This document shows, one piece after another, positions 52,964 through 62,338 of a DNA stretch of 64,000 nt. Source of the stretch: Nocardioides sp. (GTDB lineage Bacteria > Actinomycetota > Actinomycetes > Propionibacteriales > Nocardioidaceae); contig NZ_JANINT010000010.1 in NCBI RefSeq assembly GCF_024509035.1, positions 1 to 64,000 on the forward strand. Reading direction: 5' to 3'. Below the pieces are notes generated by a model that was not told where the DNA came from, did no database searches, and worked only from the letters and a program-made list of their open reading frames with translations. Numbering within the stretch: position 1 is the first letter of the stretch; each line of letters starts with the position of its first letter. The translations under genes and the position numbers were made by a program.

Positions 52964-54007
52964 TCACCCGAGGGGCGCGGCGTCGACCTGGTCCGGCGCG
53001 TGTCCGCGGCGGGCGACCTCGGCCATGGCCCGGTCGATCCCGCCGTGCTCGAGGGCGGCGGCGGTCGAGTCGTCCGCCCAGAGCAGGCGGCCGTCGCGCC
53101 GGACGCTCACCCGCATGGTGGCGCCGAGGTGCTCGATCGCACCGGGAACGTTGCGACGCTCGAGGGGTAGCGGGACCGGCAGCACGTGCGCGGCATCCAG
53201 ACCGCCGACGCCTTCCACATCGACGCGCCACCGAGCCGATCGTCCGCGCAGCAGCCAGCGCTCGTCGGTCACCTCGGCGCGCACGGGTGAGACGACCGGG
53301 TCGCCCAGCCGGAGCAGCCGTCCGCCTGGCAGGAGCACGACGAGCGCGGTGACCGTCGTGCGCAGCGGGCCGGCGGTCACCTCGCCGCCCGCGAACGCCA
53401 CGCACACCGAGGGGTCCTCGAAGCCCTGGGCCTGGCCCCACCACCACGACTCGGGGAAGCCGCCCTTGCCCCAGTTCTTCTCGGCGTAGACCGCCCAGCC
53501 GTCCAGGTCCCAGGTCTCCGTGCCGACCACCGCATGCCCATGGGCGGAGCCCCCGAGCAGCCACGGGTGCCAGTACTGGTTGAGCCCCGGGACCGCCTGG
53601 AAGACGCTCGACCCGCCGACGGCCCGCCGGGGCCACGGCGTCGGGACCGTCACCCTCACGTCCACCCGGGCGTCCGCCCCGAGGTCGACCACCAGCCGGT
53701 CGGCCTCGCCCCGGAACGCGTCGCCGGCGTACGCACCCAGGCACGCACCGGACGCGTGACCCTCGGGGTGGGCGACCGTGCGCAGGAAGCCGTGCGGGTG
53801 CGCCGCGAGCCCGAGGGTGGCCCAGTGGCCGTCCGCCGCGCGGTTCACCCCGTTGAGCGCGATCAGCACGCGCCCCGAAGCGGGGTCGGTGAACCGCCAG
53901 AAGTAGCCCTCCATCGCAACGCCGTGCGCCGGCAGCGGGTCCCCGAAGGGCAGGTCGGCACCACTGGCCCGGTACGCCCGACGTACCGCACTGATCGCCG
54001 CCACCAT
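52964..54007 (-). CDS. tocopherol cyclase-like protein
   Basis: 347 residues from ATG 54007. Patterns resembling the tocopherol cyclase family: MEGYFWRFTDPASGRVLIALNGVNR near the start, SSVFQAVPGLNQYWHPWLLGGSAHG, then WAVYAEKNWGKGGFPESWWWGQAQGF, rich in aromatic residues as in the ligand-binding barrel. There is no signal peptide. The plant enzyme closes the chromanol ring of vitamin E; bacterial relatives outside cyanobacteria are uncharacterised and may act on other isoprenoid quinones. The family call is by eye. Confidence 0.65.
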   Translation of the reverse strand: MVAAISAVRRAYRASGADLPFGDPLPAHGVAMEGYFWRFTDPASGRVLIALNGVNRAADGHWATLGLAAHPHGFLRTVAHPEGHASGACLGAYAGDAFRGEADRLVVDLGADARVDVRVTVPTPWPRRAVGGSSVFQAVPGLNQYWHPWLLGGSAHGHAVVGTETWDLDGWAVYAEKNWGKGGFPESWWWGQAQGFEDPSVCVAFAGGEVTAGPLRTTVTALVVLLPGGRLLRLGDPVVSPVRAEVTDERWLLRGRSARWRVDVEGVGGLDAAHVLPVPLPLERRNVPGAIEHLGATMRVSVRRDGRLLWADDSTAAALEHGGIDRAMAEVARRGHAPDQVDAAPLG

Positions 54008-54164
54008 CCGAGCATCATGTCAGCGGGGCGTGGACCCGGCCCCCGGAACCGATCCGGACCGCTCCCGCGGCTACGTCGGCTCGGGCCCTGGTGACGTCGA
54101 GGTCTGGCCGCGCACCGTCCAGCAGCTGGGCTGCGCCTGAGGCGACGAGCGGAAGGGGTGCGGT

Positions 54165-54812
54165 CTACTGCGCCAGCTCGCCGCCGGTCATCAGTCGCAG
54201 GATCTCCAACCCGTTGCTGTTGCCGCTCGCACCCTCGGGCAGGGGTGCGCCGCGCTTGCTCGCATGCACGGCGGCCATGTTCGCGACCCACGCGGCGAAG
54301 AGGGCGCTGGCGCGAGCCTGGGAACGGGTGGGATCGGGGTCCGCCGCGCGGGCCGTCGCGTCGTCGACGAGGTCGGCGATCGCGGCCATCCAGCGCTGCA
54401 TGACGTGCCCGGCGATGTCGAGTGACCCCACCGTGAGCTGCTCCAGGAACGGGTAGGCGAGCGCGACGTCCTCCCCGGCCCGGTCGACCCAGCCGGCGTC
54501 GGCCATGGCGGCCAGGGCCGCCGCCACGGTCTCGGCCACGGGCTCCTCGACGGGGCGCTCGCGGACCGCTGCGACGAAGGCGTCGAGCCACCCGTCGAAG
54601 TAGGCGAGCATGATCGCCGCCTTGGACGGGAAGTGCAGGTAGATCGTCCGCACGCCGACCCCGGCGGCCTCCGAGATGTCCCCGATCGAGGTGCCGGCGT
54701 AGCCCCGCTCGGCGAAGAGACCCCGCCCGGCCTCGAGGATGCGCGCTCGCGTCGCCGCCTTGCGCACCTCCTGCCAGGGCGCCGACGGGGCCCGGCCACC
54801 CTGCTCGGCCAC
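54165..54812 (-). CDS. TetR-family transcriptional regulator
   Basis: 215 residues from GTG 54812. N-terminal helix-turn-helix: TRARILEAGRGLFAERGYAGTSIGDISEAAGVGVRTIYLHFPSKAAIMLAYFDGW, canonical for TetR. The rest is helical, with a ligand-binding/dimer region. It is divergent from the 2476-residue secreted protein, with a TGCCAT-C-ATGGCA palindrome between, so it probably controls that gene and itself. Confidence 0.95.
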   Translation of the reverse strand: MAEQGGRAPSAPWQEVRKAATRARILEAGRGLFAERGYAGTSIGDISEAAGVGVRTIYLHFPSKAAIMLAYFDGWLDAFVAAVRERPVEEPVAETVAAALAAMADAGWVDRAGEDVALAYPFLEQLTVGSLDIAGHVMQRWMAAIADLVDDATARAADPDPTRSQARASALFAAWVANMAAVHASKRGAPLPEGASGNSNGLEILRLMTGGELAQ

Positions 54813-54863: not shown

Positions 54864-54876
54864 TGCCATCATGGCA
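54864..54876. promoter_or_regulatory. palindromic operator candidate between TetR and giant secreted-protein genes
   Basis: TGCCAT-C-ATGGCA, perfect 6-1-6 inverted repeat in the 95-bp divergent gap, 32 bp before the giant gene's start codon. Confidence 0.55.
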
Positions 54877-54907
54877 GCGCTGACGCCACCGCACCGAAGG
54901 GGACCTG

Positions 54908-57900
54908 ATGCGCGCGCTCCGTCACCTGCCGATGTCCGTCCTGGGCCTGGTCCTCGTGATCGCGACGCTGGCCGTGGTCGCACCGCCGCAGACATCGGCC
55001 GCTCCGACGCCGGCGGCGGTCGTCTCGATCTATCCGCCGGGCGTCACCGGCGGCACCTTCGACCTGGACCGCCGGCTCTACAACCCCGACCTCGCCTCGT
55101 GCGAGGAGGAGCGACCCGCCAACCAGTTCGTTACCTACCCCTCCTATGCCCAGAGCGCGACGCAGATCTGCGCGATGTGGGGCCTGCAGAACGCGGCCGC
55201 TGCGGCGTACAACGCCATGCACGGCTACGACGAGGGCGACGAGGTGATGGTCAGCAGCCTCTACGCCCAGGCGGGACTGGTGCAGACGTTCCTGCAGCAG
55301 ATCGCCTACGCGGTCGGCAAGAACGTGAGCGGCGTGACGCCGGCCCAGCGGGCGGCCTACCAGTGGTTCCTGGCGATCCAGCAGCACTTCCAGCGCACCG
55401 CCGCGGCCGAGGCGCAGCGCGAGTACCAGAAGTGGCGGACCCAGCAGTGCGGCTACCGGCCGCCGAACACGACGGTCTTCGCCTACAACCCGAGCAGCCA
55501 ACCGGTCTGCAACCCGGACGGCAACCCGGGCATGATCGGCCTGTTCACCAGCGTCGCGCCCCCGACGTACGCCAACTTCGTCCAGTACGGCCGGTACGAC
55601 GCCGAGAAGATCCTCGGGCTGGCCCACCAGGCCGAGGAGCGCATCGACCGCACGCTGATCGACAACGGCATCGTGGCCGGGTCCGGCGCGGTGGCCGCCG
55701 TGCTGGCAGGCGGAGCTCCGCACGTCGCGGCGACCCTCGAGTCGACCGCCGGGGCGCTCGGCTCGTTCCTGCGCGTGGTCCAGCCCCACAACCGCGCGGT
55801 CTACAACTCGCTCCGGCAGGCCGGCCAGGTCGTCTCCAAGGCCGTGCAGGGCGCCGTCAAGGCCGGCCGGGTCGTCCTGGGCAGCCAGCGTGTCCTCAAC
55901 CAGATGCGCGCGGCCGCCGACCTCGTCAAGACCGGCGCTCGCTCGCTGTCCGGCCCGATGACGATCGCGACCATCGCGATCACGATCGCCGTCACTCGTG
56001 GCATCAGCGTCTTCACCGCGGCTGCCATTCCGAAGCAGCTCGCCGACGATGCCGCCGCGGCCGAGCCTGCGAACACCGACCGCTACGTCCTCGACCTCCT
56101 GACCGCCGACCAGGGCGTCGACGCACCCATCGTCTACGCCAACTACCGGGCCCAGCTGCAGTTCCCCGCGCACACGGTGGGGGTGCAGGCGGCGCCGTCC
56201 GCGTGCCCGGCCTGCGTGGTGTACGACGAGATCCCGTTGTCGGCCGCCAACCCGCCGGCGCGCATCCGGATGACCGCGCTGCACCCCGACGGCACGCCGA
56301 GCGGCTGGTCGAGGCTCGACTCGGTCGCCACCCGGATCAACACCTGGGGCATGGGGGCGTCCAACGGCGCCCTGGGCGTGCCGACCGTGAGCGTGGGCAT
56401 CGCCGGCGGCAAGGTGTGGACCAAGCAGGACCCGTCCTCCGCACCGACGGACGAGACCGAGGCCGGGCTGTCCGGCTGGCTGCCCTCGGGTGAGCTGCGC
56501 TACTTCGACCCGTCCGGCCAGCCGATGATCGCCTACCTCAACGGCGAGCAGTTCCTCACCCAGACGAGCCCCGGGTCGGTCTCGGCGGGTGGCTACGACG
56601 CCGGGAACGACTGCGCGACGCCGGGCCAGTGCACGACCTCGACGTCCATCGTCGTCATGGGTTCCGGCGGCACCCCCGAGCTCCGGAACGAGATCACGAA
56701 CGGCACGTTCTTCGGCATGGAGTGCACCGCGAACACGCCGGGGACGCACGACTGCCTGACCGACACGCTGAGCCCGAACGGACGGCTGGTGCCGGCCAAC
56801 GGCACGAGGATCCGGACCTCGGACGGCGAGGTCCTGGAGCAGAAGGGCACCAGCCAGCTCTACCGCCTCACGATCGTCCCCAACCGCGGCACCGCGCCGG
56901 CGGTCTGGGTGACCAACCGCCACAACTCCGTCGCGACCAACAAGACCAACGGGCTGCCGCCGGGCGGGGGGCTCGTCGCGGGCGAGACCGTCAGCTTCGT
57001 GGCGTCCGAGATCAGTGACGCCGGCTACGACACGACGTACACATGGCACGTCCAGACCGTCTGCCCGGCCGACCCCGACCACCCGGCGCAGACCATCCAG
57101 GGCGTCCTCGTCTGCTCCGACGACCCGAGCTACGGCAAGCGCCAGCTGCCGGCCAACCAGCAGAGCCTCACCAGCTGCGAGGCGACGGTCGGTGTGTGCA
57201 CCCCGGACGCCGTGCTGGGCGTGACCTGGACCCCCGACCCGGCCTTCCACGGCGGTCCGGTCGCGACGATGACCGGCCGGAGCGTCGAGTGGACCTGGCC
57301 CGCACCCGGCACCTACCACCTGCGGCTCGTCACGACGGACGAGTACGGCGTGACCCGGTCCTCCGACCGGGATCTCGTGATCTCCGCCGCCACCGCTCCG
57401 CGCAGCGTGCTCTCCTTCGCGGCCGCGGCGGATCCGCAGCCGGGCTCCCTCGGCCCGTCGGTGATCGGGCCGGTCGCCAACGACACGGCGCTCACCGTCA
57501 CCGGGTGCGTCGTCTCGCCGGCGGCGATCGGCACCACGCCGTACGCCACCCCCGCGGTCACGATCGACTGGGGTGACGGCGGCGCCGCCGACGACGTCAC
57601 GGTCCTGCGCGGCGCGGGCGGCGGCTGCACGACCCCGTGGCGCTGGGAGGCGACCCACACCTTCGCGGTCGACACGCACGGCCGGCCGCTCGTCCAGGTC
57701 CCGATCACGGTGACGACGCGCGACGTGACGTTCCCCGCCACGGAGCCGGAGGACCTGCCACCCGGCACCCGCGCGTCCTCGAGCGCGACGGTCTTCGCCA
57801 ACGTGCACGCCGCCCAGCTGCCACCCACCTTCCTGGGCGGCGCGTCCGCGACGTACGACTTCGTGGCGGCCGAGCGCAACCTCGTGGTCGGCTCGGTGGC

Positions 57901-60900
57901 CAGCATCCCGGACGCGAGGATCAGCTATGCGCCGGCGTCGGGGGTCACCGCCGGTGGCGTGAGCTGCACACCCGGCCTGCCGTCGGGCACGGGCTTCGCG
58001 ACGCTCGGCGGCAACCGCTTCCAGATCAGCGGCATCCCGCGTGCCAGCTCTGGCGGCTGCTACGCGGTCACCATCACCGCCGAGATCCCGCACGGGAGCG
58101 TCGAGCAGCACGCGGTCATCGTCGTCGCCCAGCCGCCTGACATCACGTCGGCGGCGAGCATCGCCTGGGACCCCGCCACCTCAGACCACTCGTGGACCGT
58201 CACGACCAGTGGCTTCCCCGCCCCGGGGATGCGGGTCACCGGCGTCGACTGCACCACCGGGTGCGGCACCGCTCTGCCGCGTGCGGTGACCTTCCACGAC
58301 AACGAGGACGGCACCGCGACGCTGTCGACGACCGGCCTGTCGGCCGACGACACGGGCGTCTACGAGGTGACCATCGAGGCCGCGAGCTCCAGTGGCTCCG
58401 TCACCCAGGTGCTGACCCTCACCGTCGACGGACCGCCGGTGTTCACCAGCCCGGCGACCACAGGCTTCAAGACCGGGCAGGCCGGCTCGTTCGCGATCGG
58501 GGTGTCCTCGGTCGTGCCGGTGACGCTCACCTGCCACGTCGACGGCTCGAACGAGCAGTGCCGCACCGGTAACGGTGCCTATCCCTTCATCTCTCACGAC
58601 TTCCCCTCGGGGAGAGGCCTCTCGCTCGTCGGATCGACGATCGCCGGCATCCCAGCGACGGCTGGCCGCTATCCGGTCACGCTGACGGCCACGAGCGACG
58701 CGGGCACGACCACCCAGGAGCTGACCATCTACGTCTCGGCGAGCGGCGGCGCGACCATCACCATGGTCGACACCGGCAACGACGACAACCTGGTGAGCTA
58801 CGTCCCCGGCGAGATCCCGGCGGGCGAGGCCACGTTCATCCTCGGGACGCACGGTGTCGTCACGCTCTGCTCGAACGTCCCGGGCGACGAGCTGCGCACG
58901 GAGACGGTCGTCGAGGGCAGGCCGGTCCCCACCCCGCTGCCGGCGGGCCTGTCGATCGAGCCGGTCGCCAACACGCGCTGCGGGGCCGGTGACCAGCAGC
59001 TGGAGCTGAGCGGCACCCCGACCGCTCCCGTGCCCGGCGCGAGCGGCGCCACGGCGTACCGACTGGTCGACGACGCCAACGGCCTGGCACTGCTGACCCT
59101 GCGCCTCCTGTCCGGAACGGCGCCGGCGTTCAGCTCCCCGGACACCGCGCAGTTCCGGGCCGGGCAACCGGGCTCGTTCACCGTCTCGCTGGGCACGGCC
59201 CACTTCATCGACCGTCGCTACGGCCTGGGCTGCATCACCGGAGCAACAGGGCTGCCCGCTGGTCTGTCGCTCACCGGCGGCGAGAACGGCACGGCCACGA
59301 TCGGCGGGACCCCGCTCGCCGGCGGCCAGAGCAAAGCCACGGTGACGGGCACCGACTGCCAGGGCCAGTCGACGACCCAGCAGCTCACCATCGACGTGGC
59401 CGAGGCTCCGATCATCACCTCCGACGACACCGCCGGCTTCCGCGCCGGCGTCGGCGGCACCTTCGAGGTCACCACCAACGCCACCGCCCACCCCAAGCCG
59501 GCCCTGAGTGTCGCCGGGCTGCCCGACGGTGCCACGTTCCTCGACCACGGCAACGGGACCGGCACGATCACGGTCTCCCCGCAGATGCCCGCCACCGAGA
59601 CCGAGGTCGCGCTGAGCATCACGGCGAGCTCGTCCGCCGGCACCGACTCCCAGCAGCTGCGGCTCGCGGTGGGCTCGGCCCCGGTCATGATCTCGCCCGC
59701 CAGTGGCGCCACCGTCGTGCTGCCGCGCGACCTGACCGCGTCGTACGTCGTCCGGAGCTCCGCGGTGCCGGTCGCGGAGCTGACCGCCTCGACCCTGCCC
59801 GCCGGGCTGGTGTTCACCGACAACGGCGACGGGACCGGCACCCTCGCCGGCGCCCCGACCGCCCTCGGTGAGACGGAGGTGACGGTGACGGCCCGCAACG
59901 GCGTCAGCCCGGCGGCGACGAGCGCCCTGCACGTCGTGGTGACCGACCCTGCCTCGCTGGCCGGCACCACGAGCGGCGCGCCGTGCGCGACCTCCTCGGG
60001 CGTCGAGGACTACGTCTTCGTCGCGGCCACCGAGAGCAGCTGGGTGCTGTGCGGCGCAGGCACGCCGGCGCCGGCCCTCACCCTCCAGTCGGTCGAGTGC
60101 GACGGCGACGTCACGAACCTGCCGCCCGGCCTGACCTTCACCGACCGCGGCGACGGCTCGGCCGTCATCGAGGGCGCCGCTGCCATCGGCTCGGGTGCGG
60201 CCTGCCCGGACGGCTACAGCGTCGCCGTCGCGTTCGCCAACGCCGGGGGAACGGTGGTGGAGGAGCTGAGCTTCTCCGTGCAGGAGGCGATCGAGCTGGC
60301 GAGTCCGACGACCACGGCCCCCTTCGTCCCGGGTGCGCCGAACACGGCCGCGATCGGCGCGGCGGCGGTCCCGCTGCCCTCGTTCGCCGTCGAGTCCGCC
60401 GATCCGCTGCCCGCGTGGCTCGAGCTCGTCGACCAGGGCACCGGCACCGCCATCGTGACCGGTACGCCGCCGACGAGCGCCGCCGGCAGCTCCGTGACCT
60501 TCAGCCTCCGGGTCACCAACGGCCAGGCGGCACCGCTCGTGGAGCAGATCACCGTGCCGGTCTCCGACATCGGGCTCGGTGCAGCCGCACCGCCGGCCGC
60601 CCGGCTGGGCACGGCGTACTCCCATCGGCTCGAGGTGCCGGACGGCGTCACCGTGAGCCTCGCCGAGGGCGGGGCCCTGCCCCAGGGCTTGACCCTCTCG
60701 CCGGCTGGTGTCCTGGCCGGCACCCCGACGGAGCTGGGCCGGTTCCCCGTCCCGCTGGCCCTGACCCGCGGTGGCACCACCCTCACGACCGGAGCCATCG
60801 AGCTCCACGTCGTCGCGGGCAAGGGTGCACTCACGATCTCGCAGTTCCGGACCCTCGATCCGAGCGACTGGTTCGTCCAGGTCGTCAACACCACCGAGGG

Positions 60901-62338
60901 CCCGATCGACCTGGCCGGGTGGCACGTCGGCCTCCAGCCTCCCGGAGAGGAGGAGTCGATCGAGGTCCCCCTCGGGACCGGCTCGCTGGATCCGGGGGAG
61001 ACCGCTGTCGTGACGACGCCGTTGTCCTCGCTCGGATCGCAGCTCGGCGTCAGTGGGACGAGCGCGGGCCAGGTGGCCCTGCAGTCGGGGTTCCGGGTCG
61101 TCGCCCCGAGCGGCGTGGTGACCGACGCCGCCGGTGTGGTGGGCGCCCTGTCGGACCTGGTGGAGGGCGACGGCGTCTCCTACCCGACGAGGCTGACGAA
61201 GGCGCACCTGCGCTACGCCTTCGTCCGCACCGGCTTCGCCGACGGCGCTCTCCAGGACTCCGAGGACAACGCCACCGACTTCACGTTCGCGAAGGTCGTG
61301 GGCGTCGAGGACCCGCCGGCCGACCCGCCCCTCGATCCACCGGCGCCGGGCACCACCTCGGTCTCGGTCGGCCTCGACGTCGCGGCACCGGTCTTCGGCC
61401 AACCCGTCACTGCGACCGCGTCGGTCACCGCGCCGGGCCAGGCTGCGGCCGGCACCGTGCAGTTCGCCGTCGACGGGGTCGACGTGGGCGGGCCGGTCAC
61501 GGTGAGCGGCGGCAGCGCACAGTCCCAAACACTCGGTGCCCGGCCCGTCGGTGCTCACGCGGTGACCGCCGAGTACCGCCCGTCGGGGTCGGGCGCCACG
61601 GTCGTCGGGCGGGCCACGTTCACGGTCGGGCGGGCGGCCACGACGACCGAGGTGGCCGTCGGACCCTCGGCGTTCACCGCGACGGTCACCGCGGTCGCTC
61701 CCGGTGCTGGCCGGCCGACCGGCGCGGTCACGTTCCTCCTCGACGGCGCGGAGATCGGTTCGGCGCCGCTCCAGGACGGCGTCGCGACCCTGGAGCACGA
61801 CGTTCCGACCGGGGCCTCTCCCACGGTCGCGGCGTCGTACGCCGGCGATGGCAGCTTCACCGGCTCCTCGGCGTCCACCGCCCGGCGTGACCCCGCCATC
61901 TCGGCGCGCATCTCGTCCGCGGAGCCGAGGAGCACCTCGGGCTGGTACCGCACGGCGGTGACCGTCAGCTTCACCTGCACGCCCGCCGGCGCGCCACTCG
62001 TCGGGGACTGCCCGGCGCCGGTGACCCTGCGACGCGAAGGTGCAGGGCAGGCGATCACCCGGACCGTCACCGCCGCCGACGGCGGGATGGCCACCGTCGT
62101 GGTGTCCCCGATCAACATCGACCGCACCGTCCCGGAGGTGCGGGTCCGGAGCGTTCGGGCTGCGTCGACCGGGCGGCCACCGCGCGGGGTCTGTGCCGCA
62201 CAGGACGTGCTCTCGGGTGTGGCGAGCTGCACGATCACGCGAAGCATTCGTCCGCGCCGGGTGGTCTACGTCGCCGTGGCGACGGACGAGGCGGGCAACA
62301 CCGCGACGGACCGGGTGGTGGTGAGGAGACGTCGATGA
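54908..62338 (+). CDS. giant secreted multidomain protein (Ig-like repeats, lamin-tail-like domain)
   Basis: 2476 residues from ATG 54908 (GAAGGGG upstream). Signal peptide at 1-31 (LGLVLVIATLAVVAPPQTSA). Residues about 32-500 are an unrecognised Cys-containing region with a hydrophobic helix near 350-372 (MTIATIAITIAVTRG). Ig/PKD-like modules follow at about 690-930 (TIDWGDGG is PKD-like). About 970-1960 is a run of putative-Ig repeats, with recurrent starts such as FTSPATTGFKTGQAGSF, FSSPDTAQFRAGQPGSF and ITSDDTAGFRAGVGGTF. About 1975-2130 resembles a lamin-tail domain (DWFVQVVNTTEGPIDLAGWHV). Two bacterial Ig-like units (about 2147-2325) and a Cys-bearing C-terminal module follow. No LPXTG or C-terminal anchor helix. 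Probably an extracellular adhesin or matrix protein; role unknown. Confidence 0.88.
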   Translation: MRALRHLPMSVLGLVLVIATLAVVAPPQTSAAPTPAAVVSIYPPGVTGGTFDLDRRLYNPDLASCEEERPANQFVTYPSYAQSATQICAMWGLQNAAAAAYNAMHGYDEGDEVMVSSLYAQAGLVQTFLQQIAYAVGKNVSGVTPAQRAAYQWFLAIQQHFQRTAAAEAQREYQKWRTQQCGYRPPNTTVFAYNPSSQPVCNPDGNPGMIGLFTSVAPPTYANFVQYGRYDAEKILGLAHQAEERIDRTLIDNGIVAGSGAVAAVLAGGAPHVAATLESTAGALGSFLRVVQPHNRAVYNSLRQAGQVVSKAVQGAVKAGRVVLGSQRVLNQMRAAADLVKTGARSLSGPMTIATIAITIAVTRGISVFTAAAIPKQLADDAAAAEPANTDRYVLDLLTADQGVDAPIVYANYRAQLQFPAHTVGVQAAPSACPACVVYDEIPLSAANPPARIRMTALHPDGTPSGWSRLDSVATRINTWGMGASNGALGVPTVSVGIAGGKVWTKQDPSSAPTDETEAGLSGWLPSGELRYFDPSGQPMIAYLNGEQFLTQTSPGSVSAGGYDAGNDCATPGQCTTSTSIVVMGSGGTPELRNEITNGTFFGMECTANTPGTHDCLTDTLSPNGRLVPANGTRIRTSDGEVLEQKGTSQLYRLTIVPNRGTAPAVWVTNRHNSVATNKTNGLPPGGGLVAGETVSFVASEISDAGYDTTYTWHVQTVCPADPDHPAQTIQGVLVCSDDPSYGKRQLPANQQSLTSCEATVGVCTPDAVLGVTWTPDPAFHGGPVATMTGRSVEWTWPAPGTYHLRLVTTDEYGVTRSSDRDLVISAATAPRSVLSFAAAADPQPGSLGPSVIGPVANDTALTVTGCVVSPAAIGTTPYATPAVTIDWGDGGAADDVTVLRGAGGGCTTPWRWEATHTFAVDTHGRPLVQVPITVTTRDVTFPATEPEDLPPGTRASSSATVFANVHAAQLPPTFLGGASATYDFVAAERNLVVGSVASIPDARISYAPASGVTAGGVSCTPGLPSGTGFATLGGNRFQISGIPRASSGGCYAVTITAEIPHGSVEQHAVIVVAQPPDITSAASIAWDPATSDHSWTVTTSGFPAPGMRVTGVDCTTGCGTALPRAVTFHDNEDGTATLSTTGLSADDTGVYEVTIEAASSSGSVTQVLTLTVDGPPVFTSPATTGFKTGQAGSFAIGVSSVVPVTLTCHVDGSNEQCRTGNGAYPFISHDFPSGRGLSLVGSTIAGIPATAGRYPVTLTATSDAGTTTQELTIYVSASGGATITMVDTGNDDNLVSYVPGEIPAGEATFILGTHGVVTLCSNVPGDELRTETVVEGRPVPTPLPAGLSIEPVANTRCGAGDQQLELSGTPTAPVPGASGATAYRLVDDANGLALLTLRLLSGTAPAFSSPDTAQFRAGQPGSFTVSLGTAHFIDRRYGLGCITGATGLPAGLSLTGGENGTATIGGTPLAGGQSKATVTGTDCQGQSTTQQLTIDVAEAPIITSDDTAGFRAGVGGTFEVTTNATAHPKPALSVAGLPDGATFLDHGNGTGTITVSPQMPATETEVALSITASSSAGTDSQQLRLAVGSAPVMISPASGATVVLPRDLTASYVVRSSAVPVAELTASTLPAGLVFTDNGDGTGTLAGAPTALGETEVTVTARNGVSPAATSALHVVVTDPASLAGTTSGAPCATSSGVEDYVFVAATESSWVLCGAGTPAPALTLQSVECDGDVTNLPPGLTFTDRGDGSAVIEGAAAIGSGAACPDGYSVAVAFANAGGTVVEELSFSVQEAIELASPTTTAPFVPGAPNTAAIGAAAVPLPSFAVESADPLPAWLELVDQGTGTAIVTGTPPTSAAGSSVTFSLRVTNGQAAPLVEQITVPVSDIGLGAAAPPAARLGTAYSHRLEVPDGVTVSLAEGGALPQGLTLSPAGVLAGTPTELGRFPVPLALTRGGTTLTTGAIELHVVAGKGALTISQFRTLDPSDWFVQVVNTTEGPIDLAGWHVGLQPPGEEESIEVPLGTGSLDPGETAVVTTPLSSLGSQLGVSGTSAGQVALQSGFRVVAPSGVVTDAAGVVGALSDLVEGDGVSYPTRLTKAHLRYAFVRTGFADGALQDSEDNATDFTFAKVVGVEDPPADPPLDPPAPGTTSVSVGLDVAAPVFGQPVTATASVTAPGQAAAGTVQFAVDGVDVGGPVTVSGGSAQSQTLGARPVGAHAVTAEYRPSGSGATVVGRATFTVGRAATTTEVAVGPSAFTATVTAVAPGAGRPTGAVTFLLDGAEIGSAPLQDGVATLEHDVPTGASPTVAASYAGDGSFTGSSASTARRDPAISARISSAEPRSTSGWYRTAVTVSFTCTPAGAPLVGDCPAPVTLRREGAGQAITRTVTAADGGMATVVVSPINIDRTVPEVRVRSVRAASTGRPPRGVCAAQDVLSGVASCTITRSIRPRRVVYVAVATDEAGNTATDRVVVRRRR

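Follow-up and report, generated by a model that had tools for sequence, protein, structure and literature searches.

The giant exported protein and its domains

The window analysed here is a stretch of 64,000 nucleotides of a Nocardioides sp. genome (contig 10 of a 453-contig, 4.75-Mb assembly), and a giant gene within it raises the question of what the unrecognised N-terminal region of its product is and how a secreted protein of this size is retained by the cell. A first-pass annotation described a 2476-residue exported protein with repeats; the reading frame, the signal peptide and the Ig-like, PKD and Big_3_5 domains all bear this out. The frame begins with ATG in a good ribosome-binding context (AAGGGGAcctgATG), and the GC content over the gene, 0.72-0.745, is the same as in its surroundings. 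The core of the signal peptide has a mean hydropathy of 2.54 and is followed by an SAA-AP type site. The features of the gene are as follows:

54908..62338 (+): gene for the 2476-aa exported giant surface protein (ORF call, Pfam)
54908..55003 (+): signal peptide, approximately residues 1-32 (hydrophobic core 7-25; cleavage site by inspection)
57266..57373 (+): PKD_4-like stretch, residues 787-822 (Pfam)
58592..58735 (+): PKD stretch, residues 1229-1276 (Pfam)
59242..60466 (+): five Ig-like repeats with the motif LPxGLxxxDxGxGTxxIxGxP, spaced 89-108 residues apart
60821..61021 (+): lamin-tail-like stretch, residues 1972-2038 (Pfam, sub-threshold)
61637..61879 (+): Big_3_5 domain, residues 2244-2324, the better-scoring of two (Pfam)

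The Pfam matches of the protein are led by Big_3_5 (3e-17) and PKD (2e-9), with PKD_4 (5e-6) marginally below its cut-off; a search of NCBIfam gave no match, and a defence-system library gave none for the surface proteins. The lamin-tail match (LTD, PF00932) reaches 23.5-28.6 bits against a curated cut-off of 34.3 and the stretch has no PDB match; its identity as a lamin-tail domain is plausible but not certain, and the earlier hint that such a domain accompanies nucleases carries little weight because the match lies below the cut-off. No enzyme family or catalytic residues were found, in keeping with the earlier view that no catalytic domain is evident. The C-terminus has neither LPXTG nor a TM segment, so that the features of a sortase anchor are absent as previously described; the tail is basic (...TDRVVVRRRR), and the protein contains 34 cysteines. 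Two long frames on the opposite strand of the giant gene, 54869-58111 (−, 1080 aa) and 58181-61798 (−, 1205 aa), are artefacts of high GC content and not genes.

A family defined by the N-terminal region

Searches of Pfam, PDB, plasmids, phages and IMG/VR gave nothing significant for residues 32-690, and no known enzyme or toxin-delivery domain was matched in the N-terminal region. The description of this region as unrecognised thus holds for the databases; it no longer holds for residues 89-387, which belong to an Actinomycetota family of at least 22 proteins. A single-sequence scan of genome contigs with the region gave no match; among 220 genomes of the genus a single believable relative was found (29% identity, 35 bits, a 1266-aa frame in G205). 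The alignment of these two sequences, used as a profile, retrieved seven further relatives, the resulting nine-member profile ten further loci and a 19-member profile three more, so that the profile searches proposed for distant homologues brought the number of relatives in other Actinomycetota to 21. A profile of four closer relatives retrieved those four alone in the genome-contig scan, and family searches of viral, phage and plasmid collections were empty. The RseB-like proteins L004 and L006 were rejected as relatives, as were L005 and L008; each had only 20-24 bits in early tblastn against candidate stretches.

The family, counting the window protein, comprises 22 proteins of approximately 1150-2480 residues; they come from Nocardioidaceae, from other Actinomycetes and from Actinomycetota further afield. 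A convincing copy is present in 12-13 of 299 family genomes and in few elsewhere, which marks the gene as sporadic; these counts are lower bounds, given which genomes were sampled and how loose the initial search stage was. Some genomes hold several members with differing stalks: G100 carries three divergent ones (L029, L064, L068) and G856 two (L060, L061).

Membership of the window protein was controlled with a profile rebuilt without it, which matches residues 89-387 at E=3.2e-18 (nominal database of 1e8 sequences); a held-out profile of the head alone matches residues 89-244 at E=1.4e-12 (nominal Z=1e8). The held-out profile matched none of 2000 shuffled versions of this region of the window protein, and of the genes called on 19 loci it hit family members only. 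The window protein gives no match to a profile of the beta region of the family, and its residues 653-718 have at most weak similarity to that region; the homologous unit is therefore the head with the hairpin that follows it. On a tree of the head the window protein diverges more than any other member, with a branch of 2.6 and at best 26% identity.

The heads of the 22 members have no match in Pfam or NCBIfam, a profile of the family head has none in the PDB over the head, and literature searches, covering papers open without subscription, gave no description of such a family. As judged by these sequence comparisons, the head-hairpin domain is previously unnamed and was not found in searches of Pfam 2025 and NCBIfam 2026; the overall type of protein, a giant modular surface protein, is already known, and the head-hairpin is its new part. 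What looked like an orphan region thereby becomes part of a defined family whose topology can be tested.

Anatomy of the head and hairpin

The N-terminal region of the window protein divides as follows:

55172..55639 (+): helical head, residues 89-244, homologous across the family (held-out profile; helices modelled in L027)
55448..55450 (+): Cys181, invariant in 22/22 (family alignment)
55508..55510 (+): Cys201, invariant in 22/22 (family alignment)
55670..55726 (+): hydrophobic segment 1, residues 255-273, Gly/Ala-rich, weak
55727..55972 (+): inter-segment linker of 82 residues, net charge +8, the longest of the family
55973..56029 (+): hydrophobic segment 2, residues 356-374, with one Arg inside
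56075..56977 (+): residues 390-690, with no family assignment, a low-confidence model and no match to the family beta-domain profile

The head follows the common pattern EY..W...PC.Y.PP...C...F..WG.Y, and C181, P186, C201, P219 and F224 are invariant in every member including the window protein; we infer that Cys181 and Cys201 probably pair in a disulfide. Where the first-pass annotation saw one internal hydrophobic helix, the hydrophobicity is real but resides in two segments, which are kept at an equivalent relative position after the head in all 22 members. Insertion scores for these segments are to be read as relative values; segment 2 is usually the stronger, with summed scores of -2 to -3.7 in many members, and segment 1 scores positive in nearly all. 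Both segments of the window protein (+6.4 and +2.3, respectively) are weaker than those of most relatives. Beyond residue 520, L028 and L067 alone have comparable hydrophobic segments, at their C-terminal anchors. The linker ranges from 12 to 82 residues and has no Lys or Arg in 13 of the 22 members; the window protein is not among these, and its net charge compares with +6 in L084 and L085 and -7 in L086.

The structure prediction called for earlier gave a poor AlphaFold model for this region of the window protein (pLDDT 47.8); the head is therefore described from the model of L027 (mean pLDDT 74.3, pTM 0.63), mapped onto the window protein via the alignment. In this model, residues 99-188 and 235-282 form helices with high confidence; a linker of low confidence leads to a long helix (330-366), which is followed by beta domains. 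The helices and the long second hydrophobic helix are near pLDDT 88-92. Neither a pore-forming protein nor a known enzyme or toxin appears by fold among the best 50 Foldseek matches listed for the L027 model; the top matches are mostly of Ig/FN3 type with a query TM-score of 0.11-0.16, and are uninformative on the head.

The region following the hairpin in relatives

Exchange of the parts behind a constant region is the usual mode of evolution of stalked surface proteins, and by its domain content the post-hairpin part of this family is freely exchanged among members. The stalk of L029 contains cadherin-like and Big_9 domains and that of L068 six MBG_2 domains; L086 (5991-10229) combines MBG_2, Big_3_5 and PKD domains and finishes with pentapeptide repeats. 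Ig-like ends with basic tails are found in L009, L025-L027, L059-L063 and L066. L067 (6890-10966) has a C-terminal LPSTG sorting signal, a TM segment and a basic tail alongside its internal hairpin, and L028 ends in a C-terminal TM segment; on account of these two proteins, retention at the surface is considered a family trait.

Neighbouring genes

Large STAND/LuxR-type regulators adjoin 10 of the 22 members, in about six lineages on the head tree; the window gene has no adjacent regulator of this type and instead has a TetR gene. The regulators are:

54165..54812 (−): regulator of the TetR family, divergent from the giant gene and 95 bp upstream of it
L026:9140-11992, L027:9692-12562, L059:3857-6703, L062:4139-6856, L063:4084-6927: HTH-AAA_16-TPR regulators, 94-175 bp from the family gene
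L029:2584-4971: AAA-LuxR regulator
L031:7158-9440: LuxR-type regulator
L084:5230-7170: LuxR-type regulator beside L084 and L085, the L085 copy being assigned by synteny and by length to that of L084
L086:10822-13197: NB-ARC/TPR regulator, approximately 0.6 kb away

AAA_16 matches number 46-90 per genome. With an assumed background of 5-10%, the chance of such a neighbour in 6 of 14 lineages is 3e-5 to 1.5e-3, where background rate and lineage number are estimates and the regulator label was defined after inspection; the adjacency is suggestive of a non-random association. Direct control of the family genes by these regulators is possible, as is control of the giant gene by the divergent TetR protein. 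No close homologue of the latter (E<=1e-30) was found in 68 relatives, hence no syntenic empty site was available for comparison. No recurring immunity-like gene was found beside family members. Upstream of the giant gene, 52964-54812 encodes a tocopherol-cyclase-like protein (PF14249) together with the TetR protein, divergently from it.

Few of the targets and signals of large STAND/LuxR-type regulators are known, and the recurrent neighbourhood provides a concrete candidate output gene for them. The family resembles genes controlled by STAND/LAL (MalT-like) regulators in that nearly half of its members (10/22) adjoin such a regulator, and the window gene differs in its divergent TetR gene.

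Proposed membrane anchoring and alternative readings

How the protein is retained was left unclear by the first-pass annotation; the paired hydrophobic segments now provide a concrete candidate, an N-terminal membrane hairpin, proposed from the sequence. The favoured reading, which is given a slightly better than even chance, is a giant surface protein anchored N-terminally by this hairpin with its stalk directed outward. The signal peptide would direct export through Sec; the disulfide-bearing helical head and the hydrophobic hairpin would remain at the membrane of the producing cell as head and anchor; and the Ig/PKD/LTD/Big_3_5 chain would form an interchangeable stalk that spans the wall and carries binding functions for attachment to a surface, a polymer or a neighbour. 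The head-hairpin is probably membrane-inserting. Anchoring is favoured because of the homology over residues 89-387, the conserved cysteines, the presence of both hydrophobic segments in 22/22 members, the confidently modelled helices of L027 and the variable stalks; the net charge of +8 on the window linker also fits a cytoplasmic loop, although positive-inside support is not general, since 13 of 22 linkers are free of Lys and Arg and that of L086 is negative. In the window protein insertion is uncertain owing to its weak segments (+6.4, +2.3; one Arg), and in L067 the LPSTG signal makes an N-terminal anchor redundant. The poor model of the window region and the position of this sequence as the most divergent member also count against anchoring.

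Segment 1 scores positive for insertion in almost every member, as does segment 2 of the window protein, and this would suit a soluble exported helical domain with the segments as its buried core, the protein being either released or bound to anionic wall polymers by the basic C-terminal tails that recur in many members; this is conceivable for the window protein, whose segments are the weakest, but considered unlikely, as segment 2 is strongly hydrophobic in many members (-2 to -3.7) and a segment of this kind is seldom retained by a soluble Sec substrate. Alternatively, the protein could be an effector, secreted or surface-held, whose Gly/Ala-rich, charge-poor hairpin enters a foreign membrane as a pore former or in a contact-dependent manner, with the repeats providing targeting or reach. 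The uncharged segment-linker-segment unit, Gly/Ala-rich in most members and unlike ordinary TM loops, points in this direction, as do a gene that is switched, sporadic and accessory, the LPSTG of L067, which frees the hairpin for another role, and weak hits of the hairpin region against PHROGs tape-measure proteins, seen in five members (best 1.8e-6). These last may, however, reflect composition; no toxin, effector or pore-forming family is matched in Pfam or NCBIfam, no pore-forming fold appears among the top 50 matches (a list dominated by beta domains), immunity-like neighbours do not recur, and the linker of the window protein is strongly positive. An effector is accordingly judged rather improbable, and its most specific form, in which the head-hairpin is a new exported device by which STAND-switched giant proteins insert a charge-free hairpin into the membrane of another cell via an Ig-like reach arm, decidedly so. 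Residues 390-690 of the window protein, poorly modelled and lacking an assignment, leave room for a known enzyme or toxin-delivery domain that has diverged too far for the searches to pick up; this is highly improbable, as the heads of all 22 members are unmatched in Pfam and NCBIfam, the PDB profile search and top-50 fold comparison are also negative, and the invariant Cys, Pro, Phe and Tyr residues are structural rather than catalytic.

Comparison with known systems

Giant surface proteins of monoderm bacteria are commonly regarded as C-terminally anchored; if N-terminal anchoring by the hairpin is correct, a conserved N-terminal hairpin with exchanged C-terminal stalks would reverse this layout. 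The family resembles the Ig/PKD/cadherin-repeat adhesins of Gram-positive bacteria in its signal peptide, its long exchangeable stalk of beta repeats, its lack of a catalytic domain and the LPXTG signal of one member (L067); it differs in that the window protein has no C-terminal anchor and that the constant part, with its hydrophobic hairpin, lies at the N-terminus. Inverse autotransporters of the intimin/invasin type have an N-terminal membrane part and a C-terminal Ig-like stalk directed outward. The likeness to this arrangement is one of working principle only, as the window family has a helical head (L027 model) and a hairpin in place of a beta-barrel, and no outer membrane; it is not a member of that group.

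LTD-containing secreted bacterial proteins include a DNase of Thioalkalivibrio (PMC4486849). The window protein resembles it in the lamin-tail-like stretch near its C-terminal third, and differs in having no nuclease domain and in that this stretch is sub-threshold and absent from the relatives scanned. A second LTD protein with a clear score (48.3 bits) is encoded by a 515-aa frame of the same genome (L001; G000 contig 19, 23027-23308).
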